Origin: Serinibacter salmoneus
GTDB lineage: Bacteria > Actinomycetota > Actinomycetes > Actinomycetales > Beutenbergiaceae
NCBI RefSeq assembly: GCF_002563925.1
Contig: NZ_PDJD01000001.1
Location: forward strand, 812,973 to 876,972
Direction: 5' to 3'
DNA: 64,000 nt
Part shown: piece after piece, positions 4,058 to 50,972 of the stretch
Position numbering within the stretch: the stretch's first letter is position 1
Layout of the letters: each line of letters begins with the position of its first letter
Made by a program: the position numbers and the translations under genes
Notes under the pieces: generated by a model
Told to the model about the DNA's origin: nothing
Databases searched by the model: none
Seen by the model: the letters and a program-made list of their open reading frames with translations, nothing else

Positions 4058-5421
4058 GCCGGCACCCGGGAGAGGGCTCGGAGTTGCTCGGCGGCACCGG
4101 TCGACGTCGAGGCACGACGCCAGGCAACCACGGGGATCCCGGAGCGTTCCAGCACGCTGACGCGGGTCTCGCGCTCGGCGAGCACGACTCGCGCAGCCAC
4201 CATCTCGGGCTTGGTCAGGCCGCGCATGGACAGCTCGGGAAGGACGTCGATCACCACCACGCGGTGGCCCAGGGCGGCCCAGTCCGCGGCCGCGGAGGCT
4301 GCGCCGTCGTCCAGCAGGGTGCTGACCAGCACCACGAGCGCGCCGGAGGTGATCTGCGGCGCCCGGAAGAGTCTCGCCGGCTCACCCTCGGGCTTGGCCA
4401 GGGCGAGGGCGAACCGCAGCCGCGCGAGGTGCCGCGGGCCCGCGCCGGGGGTGACGGCTCGCCGCCGTGTGGCCAGGTCCGCCAGCCCCACCCGGTCGCC
4501 CTGGCCGATGTAGGCGGAGGCGAGGGAGGCGACGGCGGTGCGCGCCACATCGATCGAGGTCACCTTGTGTGGCACTGTCTCAGTGCCCCCCGCCCAGGAG
4601 GAGATGTCGGGGGAGACGTCATCGCGCGAGTCCAGCACGAGCATCACCACGGCCTCGGCCATGGCGTGAGTGCGGCGCACGTACAACTGCGTGGGCAGCC
4701 GCGGGTCCGTGGTGCCGCGACGCGCGGTGACGCGCCAGTCGATGCTGCGCAGGCGGTCACCGGGGGCGTAGGTGGCGATATCGCGCAGGTCCTCGCCCTC
4801 CCCGCGGCGGCGGGAGGTGTGCTCCCCGGTCAGGCCGAGCAACTGGCCCGGCAGCGGGAGCTCGTCCAGCGGCAGCACCCGGGGCTGCACGATCAACGGG
4901 GGAGCCTTCAGAGTGGCCGGTCCGCGTTCCCGCAGCCCGGAGGCCACCTCGGCGTAGTCCACCCGGAACGTGGGGAGCACCCCGGTGTGGACCGAGCGGA
5001 AGGAGAGCCGCACCTCGCCCGGGGCGAGCAGCGCGGCCGCGGGCCGGTACCCGGCAACGGTCACCCGCACCCGGGTGGGCCCGGGCAGCCGGAGCAGGCC
5101 CACGTGGCGGCCCCCGGTGGAGCCGCCGAGCGTGATCGTCGGTGCCGGGCGACGATCGGCGTCGGCGTCGGCGGCGGCGGCGGTCGGGGCCTCAACGTCG
5201 GTGTGAGCGGCCGCGTCGCCTGTCCTCGCAGGGTCTGCGGTGGTGGTCGGCGCGAGCGGCACGGTGCGGCCGGGCAGGGCGCGGGCTGCGAGGACCACCG
5301 CGAGGGCGAGCGCCCCGAGGGTCGCGAGGTCCCACCGGGCGAGCACGACCCCCAGCACGGCAGCGGCCAGGCCGACGAGCGTCAGCGACGCCCCGCGGCC
5401 GGTGGTGTACCAGGCGCTCAT
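4054..5421 (-). CDS. DUF58 domain protein, MoxR-associated
   Basis: This 455-residue protein has two N-terminal membrane segments (residues 10-50), a low-complexity Ala/Asp/Thr linker, a beta-rich middle domain and a C-terminal DUF58 region. The DUF58 signature is GEDLRDIATYAPGDRLRSIDWRVTARRG, followed by a von Willebrand A-like segment beginning VVMLVLDSRDD, a MIDAS-like start. In this family the protein works with a MoxR AAA+ ATPase in assembly of membrane or cell-surface complexes. It lies 9 bp downstream of moxR and overlaps the next gene by 4 nt. Confidence 0.85.
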   Translation of the reverse strand: MSAWYTTGRGASLTLVGLAAAVLGVVLARWDLATLGALALAVVLAARALPGRTVPLAPTTTADPARTGDAAAHTDVEAPTAAAADADADRRPAPTITLGGSTGGRHVGLLRLPGPTRVRVTVAGYRPAAALLAPGEVRLSFRSVHTGVLPTFRVDYAEVASGLRERGPATLKAPPLIVQPRVLPLDELPLPGQLLGLTGEHTSRRRGEGEDLRDIATYAPGDRLRSIDWRVTARRGTTDPRLPTQLYVRRTHAMAEAVVMLVLDSRDDVSPDISSWAGGTETVPHKVTSIDVARTAVASLASAYIGQGDRVGLADLATRRRAVTPGAGPRHLARLRFALALAKPEGEPARLFRAPQITSGALVVLVSTLLDDGAASAAADWAALGHRVVVIDVLPELSMRGLTKPEMVAARVVLAERETRVSVLERSGIPVVAWRRASTSTGAAEQLRALSRVPA

Positions 5422-6447: not shown

Positions 6448-7046
6448 GTCGCTCCTTGACGTGCGGTGCCGTGTGGGTCGTGTGATGTGGTGGCGGACAG
6501 GGTGCCCCGTGAGTCGCGTGAGTCGCGTGAGTCGCGCGAGTCGAACGCGTCGAGGGCGTCGAGCGCGCGCTCCACCGGACCCATGCCGGGCCGGGCCGAG
6601 CCGAGCTCCCCTCGGATCTCCTGCAGCGCCCGCGCATCCTGCGGCGTGGCGCTCGCGGCACGCGTCTCCAGGGTGGCGAGCAGGCGCGATCGCAGCAGCT
6701 CGGCGGACCGGTGGGAGTCCCCGGCATTCCAGGACAGCCGGTAGATCTCCGAGCGGCGTCCGCCGCGCTCCACCGCCTGCGCGCGGGGCCACGGCGGGGC
6801 CGTGACCTCCGGGAGCATCGTGACCATCACGATGGCGGCGAGCATGGCGCACAGGATGAGCAGCGTCCCCGCGATCGTCAGGCCCGCCACCACATAGGTG
6901 ACGACGCCGACGGCCACGGTGAGCACACCCCCGGCGATCAGGGTGATCACGCGCGTGCGCTGGCGCCGCGCGGCAGCCGCCGCCACCTGCCGGGCGTGCT
7001 CCCGCTCCCGCCGGACGCGCTCGCGTTCGTCCTGGCTGGTCCTCAT
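6444..7046 (-). CDS. Two-span membrane protein between DUF4129 and MoxR genes
   Basis: This 200-residue protein starts with a charged Arg/Glu coiled segment, followed by two adjacent membrane spans (residues 32-80) and a soluble region ending in a DSR tandem tract. It sits between DUF4129 and MoxR genes with 4-nt overlaps on both sides, so it is part of that operon. I do not recognise a named domain. The C-terminal DSRDSRDSRDSR tract comes from four 9-bp repeats at 6511-6546. Confidence 0.75.
   Translation of the reverse strand: MRTSQDERERVRREREHARQVAAAAARRQRTRVITLIAGGVLTVAVGVVTYVVAGLTIAGTLLILCAMLAAIVMVTMLPEVTAPPWPRAQAVERGGRRSEIYRLSWNAGDSHRSAELLRSRLLATLETRAASATPQDARALQEIRGELGSARPGMGPVERALDALDAFDSRDSRDSRDSRGTLSATTSHDPHGTARQGAT
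6511..6546. repeat. 9-bp coding minisatellite (Asp-Ser-Arg)
   Basis: Four tandem units of GAGTCGCGT, with variants in units 3 and 4, encode a DSR tract on the minus strand. Like the tract at 3011 it is in frame and could vary in copy number without frameshift. Confidence 0.9.
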
Positions 7047-41267: not shown

Positions 41268-41354
41268 TCAGGCGATGTTGAGAATGGACATGCCCGGAAA
41301 GAGGGCAAAGAGCACGGTAAGAGGTAAAACGAAGAAGACGACGGGGACGAGCAT
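41268..41354 (-). pseudogene. tadC: Detached 3' end of tadC
   Basis: On the minus strand these 87 bases encode MLVPVVFFVLPLTVLF and then ALFPGMSILNIA before a TGA. This is the hydrophobic C-terminal segment found at the end of TadC-type platform proteins. It begins with the same MLVP at which the tadC copy at 50115-50972 breaks off, so it is the missing end separated by the integrated element. It lies 30 bp before flp, as an operon neighbour should. Codon use (GTT TTA CCT CTT) is strikingly AT-rich for this genome. Confidence 0.93.
41344..41354. other. Left attachment core of the integrated element
   Basis: GGGACGAGCAT is shared exactly with 50131-50141. It lies within the codons for the MLV of tadC and marks the left junction of the element. 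Confidence 0.88.
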
Positions 41355-41384
41355 TCGTAGTACAGACTCGCGGGCATCCCGGCC

Positions 41385-41414
41385 GGTATAGGTCGGCCCC
41401 AGGGAGCGCTGCAA
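41385..41414 (-). promoter_or_regulatory. Outward-facing promoter at the element's left end
   Basis: On the minus strand TTGCAG (41409-41414), an 18-bp spacer and TATACC (41385-41390) form a promoter pointing out of the element toward the tadC tail and flp. In the excised circle the same promoter would face the integrase gene about 85 bp away. Confidence 0.5.
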
Positions 41415-41463
41415 CCGCTCAACCTGGGGCCTCGGTCCGGGCGCCTACCGAGAGGTGCGAACC

Positions 41464-41643
41464 GTGAGCACAGACACTACCCAACCCACCGTCAGCGATG
41501 ACGTGTGGGGACCGCAGGATGACCAACCGATCCCCTACGCGCTGACCGATGAGGGCAAGATCTCGGTTTGGCTCGATGCCCTTGACGTTCTTCCCCGCCC
41601 CGTCCTGCGCTGGTGGGCCTCGCGTGAGGGTGCGGACCTGTGA
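41464..41643 (+). CDS. Small acidic protein, element left end
   Basis: This 59-residue protein begins at GTG 41464 (or GTG 41455) after a GAGAGG box. It is acidic at the N-terminus (TVSDDVWGPQDDQP) and ends LPRPVLRWWASREGADL. No domain is recognised. It overlaps the next gene by 4 nt (GTGA), so the two form a small plus-strand operon divergent from the host pilus genes. By position it is probably an early or regulatory element gene. Confidence 0.6.
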   Translation: MSTDTTQPTVSDDVWGPQDDQPIPYALTDEGKISVWLDALDVLPRPVLRWWASREGADL

Positions 41644-41936
41644 GCGGGGCGCTGGTGCCCCGTGGTGGGGTCGAGGCGATCCGGGACCACGCGACCACGA
41701 CGGCGCGGCATATCGCGGCGTTGATCCTGGCGGCGTGCGAGACGCGCGGGACCACCGTCGAGGCGGTCACGGCGCAGGCGGGGCAGCCTCCCCGCATGGC
41801 GCGGTTCTGTCGCGAGGCTCCGGGGCGCGTGACGCTCTCGTGGGTCGGGGCAGTCAGCGAGGCGCTGGGGGTCGATCCGTACGTGATCCTCGGGGCAGCC
41901 TTCGAGCTGGCAGGGGAGGCGCCTACGCGCGTGTAG
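41640..41936 (+). CDS. Putative helix-turn-helix regulator of the element
   Basis: This 98-residue protein has a central helical region, TTVEAVTAQAGQPPRMARFCREAPGRVTLSWVGAVSEALGVDPYVILGAAFELA. It is spaced like an XRE/Cro-type helix-turn-helix followed by the conserved alpha-4 and alpha-5 (LSWVGAVSEALGVDPY). It is transcribed opposite to the element's main operon, as phage immunity repressors are. The assignment is from pattern and position only. Confidence 0.6.
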   Translation: MSGALVPRGGVEAIRDHATTTARHIAALILAACETRGTTVEAVTAQAGQPPRMARFCREAPGRVTLSWVGAVSEALGVDPYVILGAAFELAGEAPTRV

Positions 41937-41957
41937 TCGAGGCAGTCACCGTCCCTC

Positions 41958-41981
41958 AGGTGGTCAGTTCCGACCACCTGG
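41958..41981. other. Hairpin after the element regulator gene
   Basis: CAGGTGGTC (41958-41966), loop AGTTCC and GACCACCTG (41973-41981) form a 9-bp perfect stem 22 bp after the regulator's stop. It may be an operator or terminator and is the first of many stems in this non-coding block. Confidence 0.65.
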
Positions 41982-42079
41982 CGGGCGGTGGTGGCCTCGG
42001 CTCACCACGGCGCTCCTGCCCCTCAGCCGTAAACCGAGGGTGTCCCGGACAACCACAGTCCTGTGAACGGGCACAGGCA

Positions 42080-42112
42080 CCCCCGCCGTACGCGTGCACC
42101 GTACGGCGGGGG
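42080..42112 (+). terminator. Strong hairpin, probable terminator of the plus-strand operon
   Basis: CCCCCGCCGTACG (42080-42092), loop CGTGCAC, and CGTACGGCGGGGG (42100-42112) form a 13-bp perfect stem. A weaker 7-bp stem follows at 42126-42151. There is no U-tract. Confidence 0.65.
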
Positions 42113-42290
42113 TCACACCAATCTAGCCGCGCTCACGATTCGAGGCGCGGCCCTCAGGTGTGCCGTGACGCGATAACGGGGCATGGTTCGTGGGAGTCCG
42201 GGGAGGGGATCAAGACAAGCGCCACCCGTAGGGTGTCCGCGCCGTTGCGTCACGATGGGGTGCCACGGGAGAACCGGGCGTGGATGCGTC

Positions 42291-42480
42291 GGGCCCAGCG
42301 GGGCCCAACGCACCCCCGTGTGCGGGTGGGGCATCGCCGGATAGGTCTAGCCCAGCGGGGCTAGACCTAACTTCGGGCCCAGCGGGGCCCAAAGTGTCAC
42401 GGGCTCGGGCTCGGGCCCCGTCGGGCCCAGCGGGGCCCAACGGGGCTCGGGAGAACCCTGGGCCCAGCAGGGCCCGGGGT
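42291..42480. repeat. Cluster of five AGCG/AGCA-loop hairpins
   Basis: Five stems share a CCC-AGCG-GGG (last one AGCA) tip: 42291-42306, 42342-42369 (12-bp stem beginning TAGGTCTAGCCC), 42375-42390, 42416-42445 (with outer CCCCGT/ACGGGG) and 42455-42480. The tip is constant while the outer stem bases differ and remain complementary. They precede the repeat-plus-palindrome array. Confidence 0.9.
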
Positions 42481-42482
42481 CA

Positions 42483-42837
42483 TCCGGCCCGGGCGTGGTG
42501 GGGGGTGACGGGGGCAGCGAGTTCTTGTCTAGAACTCGCTGGCTCCGGCCAGGGCGTGGTGGGGATCATGTCCGTCTAGCCCAGCGGGGCTAGACGGGGG
42601 AGTCATCCGGCCCGGGCGTGGTGGGGGCGGTGGTGCGCAGAACTACGCACCTGCCCCGGAGCCGCTCCGGCCCGGGCGTGGTGGGGGCAGACTCAGGTGA
42701 TGCAAATGCATCACCTCGGAGTCCCCTAGGTGATGGAATCCGGCCCGGGCGTGGTGAGGATCATGTGTGGACGAACTCGTTTCAACGCTTCGTCCACCTC
42801 CGGCCCGGGCGTGGTGGATTGTCCGATATCGGACAAT
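42483..42837. repeat. Array of a constant 20-21 nt repeat alternating with different palindromes
   Basis: CCGGCCCGGGCGTGGTGGGG (with few changes, preceded by T) starts at 42484, 42545, 42607, 42667, 42740 and 42800, a period of 60-62 bp with one of 73. After each copy stands a different inverted repeat: 42515-42541 (11-bp stem, arm CAGCGAGTTCT), 42572-42597 (CCGTCTAGCCC, loop AGCG), 42632-42651 (GGTGCG), 42695-42716 (AGGTGATGCA, loop AA), 42767-42797 (GTGGACGAA plus an inner CGTT/AACG stem) and 42818-42837 (ATTGTCCGATATCGGACAAT, fully palindromic). No coding frame is credible here. Function unknown. Confidence 0.95.
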
Positions 42838-43091
42838 CGTCCGTTACGCCCGCGGTCGGATATGCCTCTCAGGCTCGCGAGGATGGGCGCTGACGGGTAG
42901 GGGCGTTCGGATCACGACGGGGGCGGCGCGCGGAAAACGGCTCCGGCAGTGATCCTCGTGGCTGCAGACCCCCCACCCCATCGCGCGCGCGAGGGCCAGA
43001 ATTGAGGCTGGGGGGGACGGATAACTCCCGGAGCAATTGTCCGTGCGGCGTTCCTCCCCGTGGCTGTAACGCCCCTACCCCTGGCATGTGA
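42838..43091. other. Non-coding stretch with imperfect direct repeats
   Basis: Between the array and the capsid terminator no gene is seen. CGTGGCTG followed by a C/T-rich run occurs at 42957 and again at 43059 with similar downstream bases (CAGACCCCCC, TAACGCCCCT), an imperfect direct repeat about 102 bp apart. Confidence 0.5.
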
Positions 43092-43125
43092 AACGGGCCG
43101 GTCACCGTGTGGTGACCGGCCCGTT
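43092..43125. terminator. Bidirectional terminator downstream of the capsid gene
   Basis: AACGGGCCGGTCACC (43092-43106), loop GTGT, and the exact reverse complement (43111-43125) give a 15-bp stem. On the minus strand it is followed by TTTC, and on the plus strand by CTGG, so it best serves the minus-strand capsid transcript. Confidence 0.85.
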
Positions 43126-43258
43126 CTGGCGCTGGTTGGGTCTCGGCTGCCGGCGGAGATGCGGTACCGGCGTGCTATCCAGCCATCGTTCCGTTCTCGT
43201 CGCTAGGAGTTCCCGGCATCATCGGGGCGACGCGGTGACGTTGACGCCAGACCCTCGC

Positions 43259-44389
43259 CTAGGCTGCGGTGAGGGCGAGCTTCACGATGCCGCGAGGCAG
43301 GGTCACGTCGAGGTTGAAGCGACCTTCCACGCGGGCCATGAGTTGGTTGCGCTCGAACATGTCGGAGGAGGTTCCCCACTCCACGTGAACGCCGCTCTGG
43401 TCGGTGGAGAGAACCACGCTCTGCTCACCGATCACGTAGCCTTCGCCGTCCGTGACGCCGGGTGCCACGACAACCGGGACTCCCCACAGTCGCTGGGCGG
43501 TGGCATCGATCGGGCCGCCCACGTCGAAGTTGCCGGACGCGTTGCGGGTGGTCTGGATGCTCAGCCAGTCGGCGGGACTCAGACCAACGAATGCCGGACT
43601 CACCCCGTCTGCCAGCAACTTGGAGATACCGGCCTGCACCGTGATGAGCGGATCGGTCGCGTACGCCTGCGTCTGGATACCGGAGGTGTTGGCGATCCCG
43701 GTGAAGTTCTCGCCCGTGCCGTCCCCGGCGAGAACCTGGTTCTCCAGTTCGTCGGCCAGTGCGGCGGCGAGCTGCTGCTCCACCCACGTGCCGACGTTGG
43801 AGCGGTCGGCAAGCAGGTACTTGTCGATGGGGTCGGACAGGACCGCGACCACGCGGAGTCGGGACTCCTCGCGCTCCAGGGCCAGTGCCCGGCGGGGCTT
43901 GAGGTTGCCGGGTGCGACCACGCCAGCACCGCCCGGCTCACTGACCGAGGCGCTACGCACGAACGCGTAGATCGACTCCTCGCGCTGCGCCAGCGGGATA
44001 GCCTCGGCCAGGCGGGTGGGGCGACGGGTGGCCTCGCGGGTCAACTCCTCATAGGTGACCGGCAGCGGGGCGATCGACTCGCCCGAAGCAACCAGCGACT
44101 TTCGCCCCATGTCCTCAGAGGTGCGGTGCATCGAGGCGGCGATCTGCGAGCCGAAGCCCTTGAAGTCGAGCCTCTTGGTCGCGTCGCGCCCATCGGGTGC
44201 ACCCATGCTCTTGATCTGCGCGATCAGGGCGTCACCCTCAGCGGCGCGCTCCATCTTCTCGTTCAGTGCCTTAACCTCGGCGATCTTCGCCTCAGCCTCA
44301 GGGACGGCGGACTCGTCGCCCGCCTTGACCTTCTCAATGAGCGCTTCGGCGGCCTTGAACGCGGCCTCGCGCTGCTCCTTCAGGTTCAT
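43259..44389 (-). CDS. HK97-fold phage major capsid protein
   Basis: This 376-residue protein has an N-terminal coiled-coil delta domain (residues 1-70, rich in Glu/Lys/Ala: LKEQREAAFKAAEALIEKVKAGDE), then capsid domains with PVTYEELTREATRRPTRLAEAIPL, NVGTWVEQQLAAALADELENQVLAGDGTGENFTGIANTSG, GLSPADWLSIQTTRNASG and LWGVPVVVAPG. The late segment EWGTSSDMFERNQLMARVEGRFNLDVTLPRGIVKL is typical of the family's C-terminus. GTAGGAG lies just before the ATG. No portal, protease or terminase gene accompanies it. A satellite could use it to redirect a helper phage's packaging. Confidence 0.9.
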   Translation of the reverse strand: MNLKEQREAAFKAAEALIEKVKAGDESAVPEAEAKIAEVKALNEKMERAAEGDALIAQIKSMGAPDGRDATKRLDFKGFGSQIAASMHRTSEDMGRKSLVASGESIAPLPVTYEELTREATRRPTRLAEAIPLAQREESIYAFVRSASVSEPGGAGVVAPGNLKPRRALALEREESRLRVVAVLSDPIDKYLLADRSNVGTWVEQQLAAALADELENQVLAGDGTGENFTGIANTSGIQTQAYATDPLITVQAGISKLLADGVSPAFVGLSPADWLSIQTTRNASGNFDVGGPIDATAQRLWGVPVVVAPGVTDGEGYVIGEQSVVLSTDQSGVHVEWGTSSDMFERNQLMARVEGRFNLDVTLPRGIVKLALTAA

Positions 44390-44452
44390 AACTGCTCCTA
44401 CGAATGTGCGCCAATATGGGCGCGTTGAATGTGGGTTCCGCTCCTGGCACGT

Positions 44453-44713
44453 GCGGACGGGTTGAACCGGGCCTCGGCGTCGTTGGCGAGGCTGGCGTGA
44501 CCGCTGGCCGTGCTGTCGTGCGGCGAGCCTGATAGGCGGACGGGTTGAAACCGGCGGCTCCTCGGACTTGGCCTTCAGCAGCTCCTCGGGTTCTCACCCT
44601 TGGCCGCTTTCCGGCTCCTCGTCCTTGGCCGTGGCTATGACCGCTGGCCGTGCTCTAAACGCTTTCGCGTCTGGTGTCGATCCTACTCCTGTGAGCGGCA
44701 GAATCGACACCAG
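44453..44713. repeat. Repeat-rich non-coding gap upstream of the capsid gene
   Basis: This 332-bp gap has no convincing gene. GCGGACGGGTTGAA occurs at 44453 and 44536, TGACCGCTGGCCGTGCT at 44498 and 44638, and GGCTCCTCG twice (44556 and 44613). An 11-bp inverted repeat CTGGTGTCGAT (44671-44681) with 44703-44713 lies 9 bp beyond the stop of the next minus-strand gene and is a probable terminator. Confidence 0.8.
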
Positions 44714-44721
44714 CGACACGC

Positions 44722-44967
44722 CTAATCGTCGAGATTTCTCGCGGCGATTTTCCACGCCTCATCGGCCAGCGTGAACCATTCATCGAACGTGGTCGCGGTG
44801 GGGTCGGCGGAGTGGGCCATTTCGGCCAGCGTGGCCAGGCGCACCGCGAGGTGTTCGAGTTCGGCGTGGTCCATCGCGCGAAGCATGGCCACCAGCGCGT
44901 CACCGCTACCGGCTGCCTTTGCTCGCAGGACGGCAACGGCGTCGCTCATCAACGGGTCGGGGTTCAT
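44722..44967 (-). CDS. Small helical element protein
   Basis: This 81-residue acidic protein is predicted mostly helical (AVAVLRAKAAGSGDALVAMLRAMDHAELEHLAVRLATLAEMAHSAD, then FDEWFTLADEAWKIAARNLDD). AAGGAGA lies 6 nt before the ATG at 44967, which overlaps the previous stop as ATGA. It is the last gene of the minus-strand chain before the probable terminator. No domain is recognised. Confidence 0.75.
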   Translation of the reverse strand: MNPDPLMSDAVAVLRAKAAGSGDALVAMLRAMDHAELEHLAVRLATLAEMAHSADPTATTFDEWFTLADEAWKIAARNLDD

Positions 44968-45119
44968 CGGGTCTCCTTGAGTGGTGTGTTGTGTGCGAGG
45001 GCGCGCGCTCGGCAGTCCGGGCACGTGACCAGCAGCCAGCGCTCAGAGGTCGAGGGCTTCACCACGGGCGGCGAAGCGGGGCAGTGTGGGCGGTGAATCA
45101 GCCCGTACGGGTCGGTCAT
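44964..45119 (-). CDS. 51-residue zinc-cluster protein
   Basis: This tiny gene was found by following the overlap chain: its ATG (45119) overlaps the WhiB-like stop as ATGA and its TGA overlaps the next ATG. The product begins MTDPYGLIHRPHCPAS and contains HCP near residue 12 and TCPDC near 33, so a CX2C plus His/Cys metal site is likely. Arg-rich flanks could contact nucleic acid. Function unknown. Confidence 0.7.
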   Translation of the reverse strand: MTDPYGLIHRPHCPASPPVVKPSTSERWLLVTCPDCRARALAHNTPLKETR

Positions 45120-45376
45120 CGGGACTTCCTTTCGCGTTCGGTCAGGCCGCCATACACGCCGGCCTCATCGGGCCAGGCGAGGCCGTACGCGCGGCAGGCG
45201 ACCTTCAGTGGGCAGGGCGAGCACGCGGCAGCCGCGACTCGTTGAGTGGGAATCTCCTCAGCCGTCCACGCTTCAGGGGCAGGGGAGATGACGCAGGGAA
45301 TCTCGCGCGCGCGGCGGGCGAGGCGGTCCAGCAGCTGCAACCGCTCGGCCTCGCGGCGATCCTCGGCCGGACTCAT
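45116..45376 (-). CDS. WhiB-like protein encoded by the element
   Basis: This 86-residue protein has a WhiB-type pattern: first Cys in IPCVIS, then AAACSPCPLKVACRAYG (CX2CX5C) and the turn DEAGVYGGLTERERKSR, where GVYGG replaces the usual GVWGG. Phages and satellites of actinobacteria often carry WhiB-like proteins that antagonise or replace host WhiB control. ATG 45376 (MSPAED) follows GGGAGG and overlaps the upstream stop. The host whiB1 lies at 17226-17474. Confidence 0.88.
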   Translation of the reverse strand: MSPAEDRREAERLQLLDRLARRAREIPCVISPAPEAWTAEEIPTQRVAAAACSPCPLKVACRAYGLAWPDEAGVYGGLTERERKSR

Positions 45377-45645
45377 CGCGCCTCCCATTGCCGAAGCACC
45401 CACTGCACAAGTTCGCGCTGACCGCCGGTCACCCACTGCGGTTCATCGGCGTGTAGGCCGTCCATCCGGCAGCCATCGCTCTGGTCTGACTCCGATACCC
45501 GGCACTCAGGGAAAGCGATCAGGTGAGCGGCACGCGTCCAGCGGCAGGACTCGCACACGAACGTCAGCGACCCCCGGTGCACGAACCACGGCCCGCCCAT
45601 CCGCGCACACACGGCACACATGGGCGTCCACGCATCGGCGGTCAT
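45373..45645 (-). CDS. Multi-cysteine zinc-finger protein of the element
   Basis: This 90-residue protein has MCAVCARMGG, FVCESCRWT and FPECRVSES, giving CX2C pairs at about residues 10-13 and 31-34, consistent with zinc binding. Trp-rich C-terminus (WVTGGQRELVQWVLRQWEAR). ATG 45645 overlaps the upstream stop. There is no His-Asn-His motif, so nuclease activity is not supported. Confidence 0.75.
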   Translation of the reverse strand: MTADAWTPMCAVCARMGGPWFVHRGSLTFVCESCRWTRAAHLIAFPECRVSESDQSDGCRMDGLHADEPQWVTGGQRELVQWVLRQWEAR

Positions 45646-45791
45646 CGGTCGGCCCGCCGGTAGGTCGCGAGGGTCGGGCATGTCTCGTCGTGGGCGACGG
45701 TCATGTGCACGATCCCCGGCCCGTCGTCTCTCACGATCAGGTCAGCGTCACAGTCGGCGCAGGCTCCGGCGTGTTCGAGGTACACGTTCAC
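45642..45791 (-). CDS. 49-residue cysteine-rich element protein
   Basis: Starting at GTG 45791, which overlaps the primase stop as GTGA, this short protein reads VNVYLEHAGACADCDADLIV and ends with HDETCPTLATYRRADR. A CX2C pair plus a later His/Cys suggests a small metal site. A longer upstream in-frame start would overlap the primase gene without reason. Function unknown. Confidence 0.65.
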   Translation of the reverse strand: MNVYLEHAGACADCDADLIVRDDGPGIVHMTVAHDETCPTLATYRRADR

Positions 45792-47806
45792 GGTCGCGAT
45801 CCCCCGGTGTGGTTGGGGCGGCACCGTGAGGTGTAGCCGGGTCCGTCGAGTGGTTCGGCGCACTCGGGGCAGGCCGGCGAACGTGAGGGAATCGGGGTGA
45901 CTGTCCCACCGTCCCCCACCGTCCCCCGACTGTCCCCCGGGGACGCTTTGACTGTCCGTCCCCCGTCCCCGTCTCTAGGACGGGGGACAGTCAGACACTC
46001 GATTGGGGGCACTTTCTCGGTTGAGTGTCCCCCGCCGGTGTAGGTGTCCGATTGCGGGTCGTCGGCCTGCCTGTAGGCGCGAGTGAGGGTGTGCATCTTG
46101 GCGTTACGCGCGCCGTCCTCCACGCTCACGAATCCCTCGGCCACCAGCACGTCAAGCGCGGCCCGTGCGGCACCCTTGCGCCCCGTCACGGCTCCTTCAA
46201 TGCTCCGGTAGCTCAGCGGTGCCTCGGCGTCCTCCAGGGCCTTGGATACGCGCTCCATCAGCGTGGTGGGTCGGAACGGTTCGGCGGGGTCGCGTTCGAT
46301 CGCCGCGACTAGGGCAACCTCCACCCCATCGGGTCCGGGTGACACTCTCAGGTCCGCGACGTGTTGACCGGCCCGGTAGTTCCCGGATCGGTCCTTGGCT
46401 GCGACCAGGCGGGCATATCCGGCGGTGGTCCGGTCGAACGGCTTGACCACTCGCAGCATGTACTGCGCCCCGGAGATCGCCGCGCGCTTACGTTGCGACC
46501 CGATAGGCCACAGTCCCTCACTGTCGGCCTTGGTGACGTGATCGAGGATCACCACGGCGGGGCCTTGGTCCGCGACCCACCGGGGCAGGATGCGGAACCA
46601 TCGCGCTACCTCCTCATCGGCGTTCGGGTTCGCGCCCTCCAGCGCGAGGCCTTCGCCTGTGGAGTCGATGACGACCAGCGAGGGGCGCAGCGAGTCCAGC
46701 AGCATCCCCATGTGTTCGCGGTCGGCCTCGGTCAGCCGCTGATCGGGGTGCACGTAGGCGAACCGCGCCCGGATCGCCTCGGGGTCGGTCCCCAGGTCCA
46801 GCAGCCGCGAGAGGATGCCGGCGGCGTCGTCTTCGAGGTCAACGAACGCGACCCCGTTACCGGCCTCCAGCTCCTGCGCCACGGCGGCGAGGGCGGCCCA
46901 TGTCTTCCCGCCTCCCGATTCCCCCGCGAGGCCGTTAACGCGCCCGGCGTAGAACAGGGCGCTCCCACCATCGAGGCTCCCCACAGTGGGCCGGGGTCGC
47001 TCCAGGGTGCCCGCCTGTAGCGCGTCGAGGATGCCGTCTAGGTCCACTGGTGCCCAGGTGCTCCCCGGGGCCTCCTGTGGGGCCTCCTGCGCCTCCTGTG
47101 GGGCCTGCCGGGCCGCGAGGGTGCCCAGGGTGCCCCCGGCGGCGTAGTGGTCGGATAGGTCCTTCCCGTGCGCCGCCTCCACGAACGCGAGGCTCGCCAC
47201 GATCCCGGCCAACTTCTCCGCGACGATCCCGGCCCACTTCTCCCCGGCGGCGTCACGGTCCACCACGGCCACGACATGCCCACCCCGTAGCGGCTCCACG
47301 TCCGCGAGATGAAAGTTCGTCGCGCCCTGTGGTGCGGTGGTCCCGGTGCCTCCCATGACGAACGCGGTATCAGCGTCCTGTTCACCCTCGGTCAGGTGCA
47401 CCACGCGCCCCTCAGCGACCGCCTGCGCCACTTCTGGCAGCCGATACAGGGGCGAGGCACCGCGAGTCTGCCCCGCCTGCCGAAACCGCTTCTCCGGCGT
47501 CCTGGTGACGGTGCGAATCGTGGTGAGTCCGCCCGCGTCCCGGTACTCGTACGTCTTGCCGCGCGGGTCGTCGAACAGCTCGCGCATGGTCCACCCCAGC
47601 GCGCCCGCAATGTCCTCGGTCGTGCACCCGGCGTGACAGTAGACAAGGGCGCGCCCATCGCCTGCCGTGAGACTCAGCGAGGGCCTACCGTCGTCGTGGG
47701 CGGGGCACTGTGCCATCGCACGATCCCCGCGTGTCTCCACGCGCTTCCCGGCCTCCCGTAGCGCGTCGAGTAGGCGATCGTAGGCGGTCGTGGTCGGGAC
47801 CATCAC
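45788..47806 (-). CDS. Primase-like zinc/Toprim protein fused to a RepA-type AAA ATPase
   Basis: This 672-residue replication protein starts with a DnaG-type zinc finger (CPAHDDGRPS and YCHAGC, residues 34-61) and a Toprim-like region (VVHLTEGEQDADTAF, VVAVVDRDAAG, about 130-230). A QEA-rich linker follows, then a RecA/RepA-type ATPase with Walker A GESGGGKTW near 297 and Walker B LVVIDSTGEG near 378. A winged-helix segment lies near 540-600, and a zinc pair CPEC near 645 closes the protein. It probably primes and unwinds the element's DNA after excision. Overlaps couple it to genes on both sides. Confidence 0.88.
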   Translation of the reverse strand: MMVPTTTAYDRLLDALREAGKRVETRGDRAMAQCPAHDDGRPSLSLTAGDGRALVYCHAGCTTEDIAGALGWTMRELFDDPRGKTYEYRDAGGLTTIRTVTRTPEKRFRQAGQTRGASPLYRLPEVAQAVAEGRVVHLTEGEQDADTAFVMGGTGTTAPQGATNFHLADVEPLRGGHVVAVVDRDAAGEKWAGIVAEKLAGIVASLAFVEAAHGKDLSDHYAAGGTLGTLAARQAPQEAQEAPQEAPGSTWAPVDLDGILDALQAGTLERPRPTVGSLDGGSALFYAGRVNGLAGESGGGKTWAALAAVAQELEAGNGVAFVDLEDDAAGILSRLLDLGTDPEAIRARFAYVHPDQRLTEADREHMGMLLDSLRPSLVVIDSTGEGLALEGANPNADEEVARWFRILPRWVADQGPAVVILDHVTKADSEGLWPIGSQRKRAAISGAQYMLRVVKPFDRTTAGYARLVAAKDRSGNYRAGQHVADLRVSPGPDGVEVALVAAIERDPAEPFRPTTLMERVSKALEDAEAPLSYRSIEGAVTGRKGAARAALDVLVAEGFVSVEDGARNAKMHTLTRAYRQADDPQSDTYTGGGHSTEKVPPIECLTVPRPRDGDGGRTVKASPGDSRGTVGDGGTVTPIPSRSPACPECAEPLDGPGYTSRCRPNHTGGSRP

Positions 47807-48102
47807 ACCTCACCCCCGACCGCTTCGAGGCGCACCAGCAGCAGCCGGGCGTCATCCTCGCCACGGGCGAGGGCGCGGTTCAGGGCACGCTCAGCGCCGG
47901 GCAAACCGAACAGCACGCGGCGGCGCTTCGTCCCCGTCAGCAGGACCGCATACGGCGCTTCGAGGTCGCGCGCGCCGTCCTGGCGAGCGGTCCCGTCGAG
48001 GGCGATACTTGAAGGGCAGGTGTTGATGGGATAGCCGGTCGCCGTCTCCCGTTGGTCGCGGGGGCGGCGATCCCCATTTGAACGGTCAGGCACCGCGGCC
48101 AC
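47803..48102 (-). CDS. Small basic element protein
   Basis: A protein of up to 99 residues; GTG 48093, overlapping the previous stop, is an alternative start. The C-terminal half (APYAVLLTGTKRRRVLFGLPGAERALNRALARGEDDARLLLVRLEAVGGEV) looks folded, and the N-terminus is polar. Its stop overlaps the primase ATG. No domain is recognised. Confidence 0.65.
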   Translation of the reverse strand: MAAVPDRSNGDRRPRDQRETATGYPINTCPSSIALDGTARQDGARDLEAPYAVLLTGTKRRRVLFGLPGAERALNRALARGEDDARLLLVRLEAVGGEV

Positions 48103-48289
48103 CCCCAGCGAGCGCGGCGGTGATTCGTGCTCGCTGCTCGGCAGTCAGGGGCGGCGCGGCTGCCACCACGCGCGAGACGTGCTCTGCGAGGGCTTGCGCG
48201 TAGTATTCCCGGCGCAGTTCGGTGTGGTCCTTGTCGGGGTGGTGTCTGACTTCAGCGGCCAGGCGTCCCCGGATTGCTCGTGCTGACAC
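48086..48289 (-). CDS. Small helical element protein
   Basis: This 67-residue protein (SARAIRGRLAAEVRHHPD, ELRREYYAQALAEHVSRVV, LTAEQRARITAALAGG) is predicted helical and positively charged, and begins at GTG 48289. It heads the short-gene group that continues into the primase. Function unknown; related small proteins of similar composition are common in actinophage early regions. Confidence 0.6.
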   Translation of the reverse strand: MSARAIRGRLAAEVRHHPDKDHTELRREYYAQALAEHVSRVVAAAPPLTAEQRARITAALAGGGRGA

Positions 48290-48291
48290 GA

Positions 48292-48403
48292 AAGTGCCTC
48301 CCAGCGGGTACGACGAATCGCACCTCCGCTGAGAGGCGCACTGCCTGGCTGTAAGCGGCTGCCGACCGGCACATTCTGCGTGCTACTGCGAGTGACAGTA
48401 GCA
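48292..48403. promoter_or_regulatory. Hairpins between integrase block and replication block
   Basis: The 117-bp gap carries an imperfect inverted repeat (arms about 48292-48306 and 48327-48343) and a clean 8-bp stem, TGCTACTG (48381-48388) with CAGTAGCA (48396-48403). The clean stem ends 4 bp beyond the zinc-ribbon stop on the minus strand. It probably terminates the integrase transcript and/or regulates the replication operon. Confidence 0.55.
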
Positions 48404-48406
48404 GCA

Positions 48407-48688
48407 CTACGGGCCGAGAGTGCCCCGCGACACGCCGTCCTCTTCCATTTTGTCGAGAATCTGACGCACGGCAGACCAGCGGCGCTGATAGTCGGCCCCG
48501 CACTCTGGGCAGCGGCGGACAATCTTCCCGGACTCCGGGGTGGGGTCTGGCTGGTCGCGAAACTCAATCGACCTCGGCACCAGGTAGCGTCCCTGCTGCT
48601 TGATGACCTTCCCTAGTTGGACACCACAGCGGCACACGATGTTGACTTGCGTGAATAGTTGCTCGACCCCTTTTCGTCGCCGGCTCAT
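48407..48688 (-). CDS. Zinc-ribbon protein downstream of the integrase
   Basis: This 93-residue protein has VCRCGVQLGKVIKQQGRYLVPRSIEF and RRCPECGADYQRRWSAVRQILDKMEEDG. The two CXCG/CPEC knuckles about 37 residues apart form a likely zinc ribbon. Its ATG overlaps the integrase stop (ATGA), so it is co-translated with the recombinase. A recombination directionality factor or DNA-binding accessory role is possible but unproven. Confidence 0.72.
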   Translation of the reverse strand: MSRRRKGVEQLFTQVNIVCRCGVQLGKVIKQQGRYLVPRSIEFRDQPDPTPESGKIVRRCPECGADYQRRWSAVRQILDKMEEDGVSRGTLGP

Positions 48689-50088
48689 TCTCCCGATCCT
48701 TTCCAGTCGATGCGGATACGCTCCGGGTCAAACGGCATTCCGGGGGTCGCGGGAAGGATCGTCACGGTGCATAGGGCATCCACGATCGCGCGCCGGCGCT
48801 CAATGCTTGCCCGCCCCCACGCCTCGCGGATGCCCGGCCCGCCGATTCCCTCCATACCCGCGGGCGGTCCTGCGTGTCGTGCGAGGCGCTCGGCTTCTTC
48901 GATCTGGGGTCGCAGCCGCGCCGTGATCCGGGCGAGCTGGTCAGCCGTGATCGCGCCCTCGGCGTACTGGTCCGCCGCGAGGTCGAGGCGCGCCTTCAAG
49001 TCGCCCGCCCGCTTCGTCTGCGCCTGCATCTCGTCGGGGTCGCCCGCGAGCAGTCGAGGGCCGTCAGGCTGTTCGAGGCGGGCCAGCACTACGGCGATGA
49101 CCACGGCGTCAACGTCCACCTGCACACGGCGGATGCGGTAGCACTCTCCGCAGGTGTAGGCCTGCTTCCCGTAGCTCCATGTGCCGTCCGCGAGTCTCTG
49201 CCGAACGGGCGAGGCGGGGCGGATTATCCCGCCACAGCGACCACACAAAGCGATCCCTGAGAGTAGGTACTTGAGTGGCGTTCCTCGCGCCGATTTGCGG
49301 GCGGGATCACGGAGGATCGAGATTAGGCGATCCTGGGTGCCGTCATCCCACAGTGGCTCCCACGATCCACGGGCGACGATTTCACCCTTGTATGTTCGCC
49401 GCCCACTGTTCCTCTGGCGCAATAGCAGTTGTCGCAGGTTCGTTCCCGTCCACCGCTTTCCGTCGGGAGTCGGGATTCCGCGGGCGTTCAGTTCTTTCCA
49501 GATCGAGCGCAAAGAATCGCCGGCGAGGATTCGAGACGCTGCATCTCGCAGGATCGCCGCAGCCTCGGGGTCGATCACGTCCTTGCCGTCTACCCGTCGC
49601 CACCCGTAACCGACCCGCCCGTGCTGCATCCCCTTGTGCGCCCGGTCCCGTGCTGCGTCCCGTACGCGCTCGGCGGTCGTCTCTGCTTCGAGGGCGTTCC
49701 AGTTCGCCTGGTTCCGCGCCTGTGCCCGACCCATCGCGGTAGTGAAGTCGGGGTCTCCCGATCGGATCGTGCGCACCGTCACGCCGGTGTTCTCCGCGAG
49801 GTCGATTAGGTCCTCGAACTCTCGGACTCGGCGCGTGAGCCTTGAAGTCGAGTAGCTCAGGATCGTGTCGAACTCGCCAGCGCGGGCGCGGTCGATCATC
49901 TCGGCATAGAGGGGGCGCTTCTTCCGCGAGTGCGTCGAGGCTCCCACGTCGTTCTCGCGGTAGACATGCACCACGGCGATGCCGTGCCGGTCTGCCAGAT
50001 CGCGGCACAGTCGCTCCTGGCGATCCACGCCGAACTCTCGGCCTTCGCGGTCATCGGAGATTCGCGCGTAGATCACTCCTCGGGCCAT
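48685..50088 (-). CDS. Large serine recombinase (integrase)
   Basis: This 467-residue site-specific recombinase has the N-terminal resolvase domain with nucleophile Ser11 in GVIYARISDDREG, the DRARAGEFDTILSYSTSRLTRRVREFEDLIDL arginine region and the long E helix. A recombinase domain (GYGWRRVDGKDVIDPEAAAIL) follows, then a zinc ribbon (CGRCGG near 284, CGEC near 311) and a C-terminal coiled coil. It lies 43 bp inside the right att core, as is usual. TACACT ends 6 nt before the ATG, so a leaderless promoter in the att region is possible. Confidence 0.95.
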   Translation of the reverse strand: MARGVIYARISDDREGREFGVDRQERLCRDLADRHGIAVVHVYRENDVGASTHSRKKRPLYAEMIDRARAGEFDTILSYSTSRLTRRVREFEDLIDLAENTGVTVRTIRSGDPDFTTAMGRAQARNQANWNALEAETTAERVRDAARDRAHKGMQHGRVGYGWRRVDGKDVIDPEAAAILRDAASRILAGDSLRSIWKELNARGIPTPDGKRWTGTNLRQLLLRQRNSGRRTYKGEIVARGSWEPLWDDGTQDRLISILRDPARKSARGTPLKYLLSGIALCGRCGGIIRPASPVRQRLADGTWSYGKQAYTCGECYRIRRVQVDVDAVVIAVVLARLEQPDGPRLLAGDPDEMQAQTKRAGDLKARLDLAADQYAEGAITADQLARITARLRPQIEEAERLARHAGPPAGMEGIGGPGIREAWGRASIERRRAIVDALCTVTILPATPGMPFDPERIRIDWKGSGE

Positions 50089-50114
50089 ACCACCAGTGTA
50101 GTCCGGCAGTACAT

Positions 50115-50972
50115 CTATCCAGCGCTTGACGGGACGAGCATCCCGATCTCCTTGCGGCCGCCCGCCTCCATCAGCTCCCGCTTGGCGGAGTCGCGGGCAT
50201 CCCCGGCCTGGGCGCGCAGCACCTCCGCCAGGGGGCTGCCGCGCTCGATGGCGGTGGCCACGCCGTCGGCGAACCGGGCGATCGCGGGCAGGTTGCTGCG
50301 CCGTGCCAGCCCGTCCAACGCCGCCGACATCGTCGCCCCCGCGCGCACATCGGCCAGGGTGAGACGGAGCTCGCCCGCGAGGTCGCCGTGGGTCGAGCGC
50401 GCCACCCGGGCCAGCGCCGACGAGGGGGCCTCCCCGGATCCGATCGCCAGGGCGAGCAACTCGGCCACCGTGGGGAACTCCGCGGCGATCCGCACCTCCC
50501 GCTGCTTCACGGCGCGAGAGAGGGCGCGGTCACGCGCGAGCGCCCCTGCTACTGCGCAGACCACGGCGACCGCCGCCAGCGCGAGGGGCGAGCCACCGCG
50601 CGTCGCCCCGATGACCAGCGCCGCGATGAGCCCGATCGCGAGACCACCCGCAGCCCAGAGCAGCTGCTCCACGCGGAACGCCTCGGGCGCCTGTGGCGAG
50701 CCCAGGGTGCGCAGTCGGTGGCGGACCGAGGCTGTGGAGGATCCGAGGTGGTCCAGCACCCGAGCGGAGTCCTGCGCGAGTGGGCGCAGGAGTCGCGCCG
50801 AGAAGGAGGCGTCGCCGTCGGCCAGCTGGGTAGGGCGCGACGGCGTATCGGCCGCGCGCACGTACGGTTCCACCCGCGCCATCAGGGAGGGCCTGCCGGC
50901 GAGTACGGCCGAGGCGATGAGCAGGATCCCGCATGCGAGACCGAGGCCCGCGAGCGCCCCGACGGGGATCAC
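50115..50972 (-). pseudogene. tadC: tadC truncated by the integrated element
   Basis: This TadC-type inner-membrane platform protein is interrupted near its C-terminus. The 285-residue product has N-terminal spans, the T2SF domain (AEFPTVAELLALAIGSGEAPSSALARVARSTHGDLAGELRLTLADVRAGATM, VLRAQAGDARDSAKRELMEAGGRKEIGMLVP) and then switches to element-derived SSAG and a stop. The normal continuation is preserved at 41268-41354. The loss removes the last membrane helix, so pilus assembly is probably impaired while the element is integrated. Confidence 0.92.
50131..50141. other. Right attachment core of the integrated element
   Basis: GGGACGAGCAT matches the left core exactly. To its right the sequence is chromosomal tadC, and to its left the 43-bp lead to the integrase gene. 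Confidence 0.88.

Follow-up and report, generated by a model that had tools for sequence, protein, structure and literature searches.

A cluster of diverse palindromes in a satellite-like island of Serinibacter salmoneus as a possible bank of binding sites for phage proteins

Introduction

What purpose might be served by non-coding DNA in which a constant repeat alternates with palindromes? The question was raised by an array at positions 42483-42838 of the window (the whole 64-kb stretch of DNA analysed here), where six copies of a 20-nt repeat alternate with different palindromes. The window, with a G+C content of 72%, lies in the complete 3.27-Mb chromosome of Serinibacter salmoneus, the one genome representing its genus in our comparisons. 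An initial annotation had suggested a bank of decoy operators, a multi-hairpin RNA or a replication site.

Results

The array was found in the non-coding end of a satellite-like island inserted in tadC. An 11-nt core stands at both island ends (41344-41354 and 50131-50141), TadC is cut at one end with its missing tail resuming past the other, and tadC is unbroken in a comparison locus (L048). The island and its genes are:

41344-50141: satellite-like island, about 8.8 kb, inserted in tadC and bounded by the repeat GGGACGAGCAT
41455-41643, plus strand: 62-aa ORF, no family found
41640-41936, plus strand: 98-aa ORF, weak PHROG match (phrog_4583, E 0.023), no significant match in Pfam
43259-44389, minus strand: HK97-type major capsid protein (PF05065, TIGR01554, phrog_10)
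45788-47806, minus strand: primase-helicase (PF13481, phrog_6088, phrog_239)
48685-50088, minus strand: large serine integrase (PF00239, PF07508, phrog_95)

Integrase, primase-helicase and capsid genes are all on the minus strand, with the two small plus-strand ORFs at the far end of the island; the 98-aa ORF possibly encodes a small repressor, and the roughly 1.3 kb between it and the capsid gene hold no convincing gene. The island ORFs compared with Pfam or PHROGs (those from about 60 aa upwards) included no portal, terminase or tail gene, the capsid being the sole virion gene among them. The virion gene set is thus incomplete, the primase-helicase provides a replication module of the island's own, and the integrase, att repeats and occupied chromosomal site correspond to those of PICI-like satellites of the capsid-forming class. 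Judged from its genes alone, the island is satellite-like in anatomy.

Direct counting confirmed the annotated layout of six repeats at 60-62 bp with one interval of 73 bp (start-to-start distances of 61, 62, 60, 73 and 60 bp). Three of the six copies read exactly CCGGCCCGGGCGTGGTGGGG, copies 2 and 5 are one base off and copy 6 two. An inverted repeat had been described in every interval, and six were indeed found, the one at 42631-42652 being imperfect. The insert stems had also been called unlike all others; they are mutually different, but not all unique, since interval 2 holds a hairpin of the kind found in a neighbouring group, sub-array A. The feature is larger than first described, with five hairpins at 42285-42480 and a palindrome at 41957-41980 bringing the total to twelve palindromes:

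41957-41980: isolated palindrome CAGGTGGTCAGTTCCGACCACCTG, of the gp30 site form (see below)
42285-42312, 42342-42369, 42370-42395, 42415-42446 and 42455-42480: sub-array A, five hairpins alike at the apex, their outer stems differing but paired
42484-42503, 42545-42564, 42607-42626, 42667-42686, 42740-42759 and 42800-42819, plus strand: constant 20-nt repeat, six copies
42515-42541: palindrome B1
42572-42597: palindrome B2, of the sub-array A type, with 22 nt identical to 42345-42366
42631-42652: palindrome B3, TGGTGCGCAGAACTACGCACCT, imperfect, of the gp30 site form
42695-42716: palindrome B4, AGGTGATGCAAATGCATCACCT, matching exactly sites that lie within phage gp30 genes
42767-42797: palindrome B5, insert significant by folding
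42817-42838: palindrome B6, GATTGTCCGATATCGGACAATC, fully symmetric

The apex of sub-array A is CCCAGC(G/A)GGG, reading CCCAGCGGGG and, in one hairpin, CCCAGCAGGG. The array is the sole one of its kind in its own genome, where the 17-mer CCGGCCCGGGCGTGGTG occurs exactly at five places, all in the array, and with one mismatch at nine (six in the array and three scattered singles).

Hairpins are far more numerous, and folding on both strands is far stronger, than expected by chance. Seven hairpins (score of at least 9, loop of at most 6) were counted in 42270-42850, against a mean of 0.06 and a maximum of 1 in 300 order-1 resamplings. RNA folding gave z values of -11.4 (plus strand) and -13.0 (minus strand), with none of 100 shuffles as good on either. 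Five of the six inserts fold better than 95% of their shuffles, the third (B3) having a p of 0.235, while only 3 of 46 spacers from three control CRISPR arrays passed the same test.

The initial annotation had proposed a comparison with related elements. None of the 16 capsid-related loci carries such an array, which is therefore no constant component of the element family, and the idea of a conserved element part was rejected; arrays of the same style were found instead in at least three unrelated elements. Hairpin clusters were scanned, independently of the repeat, in the 16 capsid loci, 20 loci fetched by integrase (18) or primase (2) and another 20 fetched by primase. At least five hairpins in 450 bp were found in L149 and L150 only, the latter without a repeat array. 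L149 is thus the only one of the 40 integrase or primase relatives with a same-style array, and a locus of genome G059 (L121) has relatives of both integrase and primase, yet no array. The L149 element, from another genome, encodes a serine integrase, a relative of the phage protein gp30 discussed below, a primase-like ATPase and a terminase; at the integrase-distal end, other palindromes are interspersed with a repeat recurring every 60-61 bp. The stretch L149:14140-15420 holds many palindromes and two kinds of repeat, and its minus strand reads an HTH-like fragment, ALGVSQSAIRNDIAALRD, before one palindrome.

A scan of viral contigs for the spacing pattern returned 69 stretches. From these came L221 (Thioclava dalianensis) and L211, two elements of alphaproteobacteria whose repeats are type I-E-like, recur at 61 bp and are separated by palindromic spacers (L221:2786-3250 and L211:1-200). 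Both are head-gene elements ending in such arrays, and the array of L221 adjoins a tRNA-Asn gene. Among 115 loci fetched with their portal protein, a 61-bp array was present only in the Thioclava element (two records); a sister element from a Roseivivax MAG (L362) has a different repeat at about 100 bp and four palindromes whose stems differ yet pair. Its four units (L362:3990-4360) read like pieces of a phage HTH protein, GEVA-[palindrome]-TAADLGLRR, with different paired stems, and one such unit occurs near a tRNA-Asn gene at L317:8035-8061. When 371 records (3.38 Mb, many of them overlapping) were passed through a detector for repeats combined with hairpins, it returned the window with overlapping records, L211, and L221 with its duplicates; L149 fell below its threshold, and a similarly spaced pattern had served to fetch L211 and L221. 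Elsewhere, no DNA match to the array was obtained in phages or plasmids at E 1e-5, exact array patterns were absent from viral contigs, no capsid hit was confirmed in genome contigs or viral contigs, primase alignment in viral contigs gave four loci in which no array was found, and Rfam gave no match at gathering scores. Such arrays are thus rare, belong to unrelated elements and are alike in layout rather than in sequence.

The HTH-coding fragments around palindromes in L362, and the fragment ALGVSQSAIRNDIAALRD in front of a palindrome in L149, would suit an origin of the palindromes as debris, i.e., functionless pieces of phage HTH genes heaped at the island end. We regard this as the least probable of the readings weighed here: symmetry is kept beyond that of shuffles in five of the six inserts, the outer stems of sub-array A differ in a paired way that decay would break, and the window array shows no recognisable HTH reading frame.

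A period of about 61 bp as in type I-E arrays and the palindromic spacers between clear I-E-like repeats in the phage-borne L221 and L211 would both be consistent with a structured RNA, such as a multi-hairpin decoy or, in a CRISPR version, a mimic of an I-E array whose hairpin spacers give useless crRNAs. RNA anti-CRISPRs exist, according to PMC10651486. We nevertheless consider an RNA improbable, if slightly less so than debris. Both strands fold about equally, simple scans found no promoter or terminator, and the centres of two palindromes measure 0 and 2 nt, which fits a DNA site of a dimeric protein better than an RNA. The CRISPR-like layout initially described was not borne out for the window repeat, which is no closer to I-E repeats than random 28-mers (6-32% of random window 28-mers score as well against seven I-E repeats). 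The accompanying statement that no cas gene is present held for Cas7e, for which the profile PF09344 had no match in the own genome. On these two results, the CRISPR and RNA anti-CRISPR reading was rejected. In the Thioclava genome, the L221 repeat was found in the element array (seven places) and once elsewhere, and no matching host array was seen. Integron attC arrays consist of conserved core sites with gene cassettes between the hairpins; the 60-73 bp intervals of the island array differ from these in holding no cassette-sized ORF. RNA anti-CRISPRs and phage mini-CRISPR arrays, as described in PMC10651486 and PMC11656645, have in common with the island array repeats at about 61 bp in a mobile element without cas genes, from which the latter differs by a repeat that is not CRISPR-like by test and by palindromic inserts.

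The initial annotation had also suggested searching the inserts against phage genomes, and one of the six was matched. In PFR1 and PFR2, two phages of Propionibacterium, B4 is matched at 23 of 23 nt, at a relaxed limit and with an E value (0.1) that is weak alone, and the PFR1 palindrome sits inside gene gp30, directly behind the HTH codons. B4 also matches 24 exact nt in L428, a viral contig retrieved solely through protein similarity, and 16 nt in L388. The other five intervals gave no credible match in phages or plasmids, nor in 213 genomes of the order (about three candidates per genome scored), the order-wide DNA search returning mostly matches on the GC-rich repeat.

PFR1 gp30 belongs to phrog_29861, of which the L149 element has a member. 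Relatives were gathered by protein from 9 phage records, 49 of 396 genomes of the order and 48 viral contigs:

L379:2262-2981; L380; L381; L149:7583-8341; L385-L459: gp30-family genes, a phage HTH family in which most, but not all, non-redundant members have a palindrome behind the HTH

Among 83 loci scored, one rule placed the HTH in 57, of which 38 had a stem of at least 8 within about 75 nt behind it. A stricter rule, dropping 30 loci without a located HTH, retained 53 loci (32 non-redundant), and a palindrome followed the HTH in 25 of these 32 genes; of 187 control windows taken within and near them, 9 held one. The palindromes of the family differ, yet have a common 22-nt frame, mostly AGGTG...CACCT. 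For gp30 itself, no PDB sequence match and only weak HTH matches were obtained; a fold search of PDB gave no match at E 0.001, with weak HTH matches to TrpR, Spo0J and KorB. Its AlphaFold model displays a confident HTH, a poorly ordered linker starting at the palindrome and C-terminal helices, which suggests that the site is placed where the protein could tolerate change.

Half-site similarity tracked recognition-helix similarity among 25 gp30-family genes (r 0.32, permutation p 0.0005), a correlation not explained by similarity of the upstream sequence. It persisted after removal of two near-duplicates (r 0.21, p 0.007, N 23) and in the 235 gene pairs less than 60% identical upstream (r 0.226, p 0.006). 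As an example, the helices TDQSTVVRD and VDQATVVRD both pair with GTGATGCA, while the 40 residues before the HTH are just 35% identical. This co-variation supports the palindrome as the candidate site bound by the product of the surrounding gene.

The site form was defined as [AT]GGTG-N12-CACC[AT] with at least 8 of 11 symmetric pairs. In the 64-kb window it occurred at three places, 41958 (palindrome 41957-41980), 42631 (B3) and 42695 (B4), all in the island and within 0.8 kb, whereas the other 63 tetramers of equal G+C (three G/C) gave 4 window sites in total. A looser score added one window site, at 6679, outside the island. The form was found twice in 1.08 Mb of other genome loci, one of these being L149's own gp30 gene, and never in 1.27 Mb of viral loci selected without regard to gp30, against 13 times in 0.27 Mb of gp30 loci; the L149 array had no gp30-type site outside its own gp30 gene. 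Three of the twelve window palindromes thus fit the form, two by form alone and B4 also by exact match, and the centre of B3, AGAAC, recurs in two gp30 genes, those of L149 and L455. Unlike the sites that the family keeps behind its own HTH, the window sites lie outside any gp30 gene, and a protein search found no gp30 relative in the own genome, for which reason the sites are probably there for proteins brought by other phages. Together, these comparisons show several putative sites of one rare phage-site type, apparently of different specificity, clustered in a satellite-like island lacking the cognate gene.

The specific matches of B4 to phage genes would be left unexplained if the array were the island's own DNA site, with its structure rather than its sequence recognised by the island's primase-helicase, integrase or packaging proteins. 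The six constant repeats do resemble iterons, hairpin extrusion is very favourable, and the region is non-coding and inside the island; the 16 capsid-related loci and L121, however, all lack the array. We place this reading slightly above a structured RNA but still consider it improbable. Operators of the island itself were also considered and rejected, 10-mers of eleven array palindromes giving scattered short matches elsewhere in the window.

Discussion

Our preferred reading, held tentatively and with a confidence just short of even, is that the palindromic sites at the island's non-coding end form a bank to which HTH proteins from different phages would bind and so be captured or titrated. 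The island would carry sites with the specificities of such proteins, the palindromes at 41957-41980, 42631-42652 and 42695-42716 having the form that the PFR1 gp30 family keeps in its own gene and the other nine belonging to other HTH families. On entry or induction of a phage, the island would be excised and copied by means of its own integrase and primase-helicase, and its sites would bind the early HTH protein of the incoming phage away from the phage's own site. The phage would thereby be delayed, or coupled to the island. Binding, the role of gp30 as an early regulator or initiator, titration, and the assignment of the remaining nine palindromes to other HTH families are all inferred. 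The operator bank of the initial annotation thus gained sequence support for three of twelve palindromes (one by an exact match of 23-24 nt, two by form), with the lack of an array in 16 of 16 capsid relatives counting against it.

Capture or titration is preferred by analogy, bacteriophage lambda being the closest tested precedent. In PMC3349717, the iterons of lambda ori are described as lying in gene O, and iterons on a plasmid as inhibiting lambda replication; this inhibition also needs oop transcription, and titration of O and handcuffing are named by the authors as possible reasons. As with gp30, a DNA-binding protein has its sites inside its own gene, and additional copies of these sites can hamper the phage. 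Lambda differs in having one specificity, several iterons and an AT-rich part, whereas the island has single palindromes of several specificities.

The main rival to titration is a replication origin for multiple helpers, in which gp30 would be an initiator with its origin in its own gene and the island sites would let several helpers replicate the excised island; this retains the replication site of the initial annotation. The gp30 gene of L149, with its internal palindrome, stands just before a primase-like gene, lambda ori lies inside gene O (PMC3349717), and the island brings its own primase-helicase. From gene position and the AlphaFold model, the gp30 palindrome would encode the start of the disordered linker between the DNA-binding and C-terminal parts, as expected of a lambda O-like initiator. 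We judge such an origin unlikely, if less so than the island's own DNA site: one palindrome per gene was found in the cases looked at rather than several iterons, there is no AT-rich stretch at the array (G+C 0.67-0.74), the L149 satellite has its own gp30 yet still an array of other palindromes, and the role of gp30 as replication starter is an assumption.

Titration loci such as datA of Escherichia coli, for DnaA, are clustered sites that lower the amount of free protein. datA serves a protein of the same genome, while no resident cognate protein was found for the island. Phage satellites P4 and PICIs carry a copy of a helper cis-site such as cos, according to PMC6092414, and thereby bear a phage site on which phage proteins act, as the island would; cos is the packaging site of one helper, whereas the island has candidate sites for early HTH proteins of apparently several phages. 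Neither palindromes in HTH genes of this kind, nor phage CRISPR arrays with palindromic spacers, nor satellites with banks of operators were found mentioned in the accessible parts of the open-licence literature, and the consulted portion of a paper on related Propionibacterium phages (PMC5831693) does not mention the palindrome in the HTH gene.

A broader extension of the capture reading, which we consider doubtful though more probable than a multi-helper origin, is that satellites assemble libraries of foreign phage sites, taken or evolved from phage HTH genes, in order to detect, starve or be copied by unrelated phages, the gp30 protein and its site changing together. If the bank reading is right, a satellite would use regulator binding sites, instead of CRISPR spacers, to record or counter many phages. 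The gp30 family, with a putative binding site inside the gene that co-varies with the recognition helix, would make helix-to-site rules testable on dozens of natural pairs, and such a recognition code would let the phages met by a satellite be read off its array.

Additional observations

Palindromes were also seen inside the end of the prohead protease gene (L304:3597, L277 and L311), the one of L304 sharing 21 nt with a spacer of the L221 array; as a general trait of L221 sisters this was rejected, with 3 of 34 motif matches in 115 loci. The palindrome TCCGCCAAGTTGGCGGA recurs in the unrelated loci L049:11816-11852, L147:16724 and L313:8103 and, over 17 nt, in the L221 array. Two very long, near-identical hairpins with stems of 29 and 30 bp lie about 1 kb apart at L047:3938-3999 and 4985-5048, in a genome belonging to the same taxonomic order.
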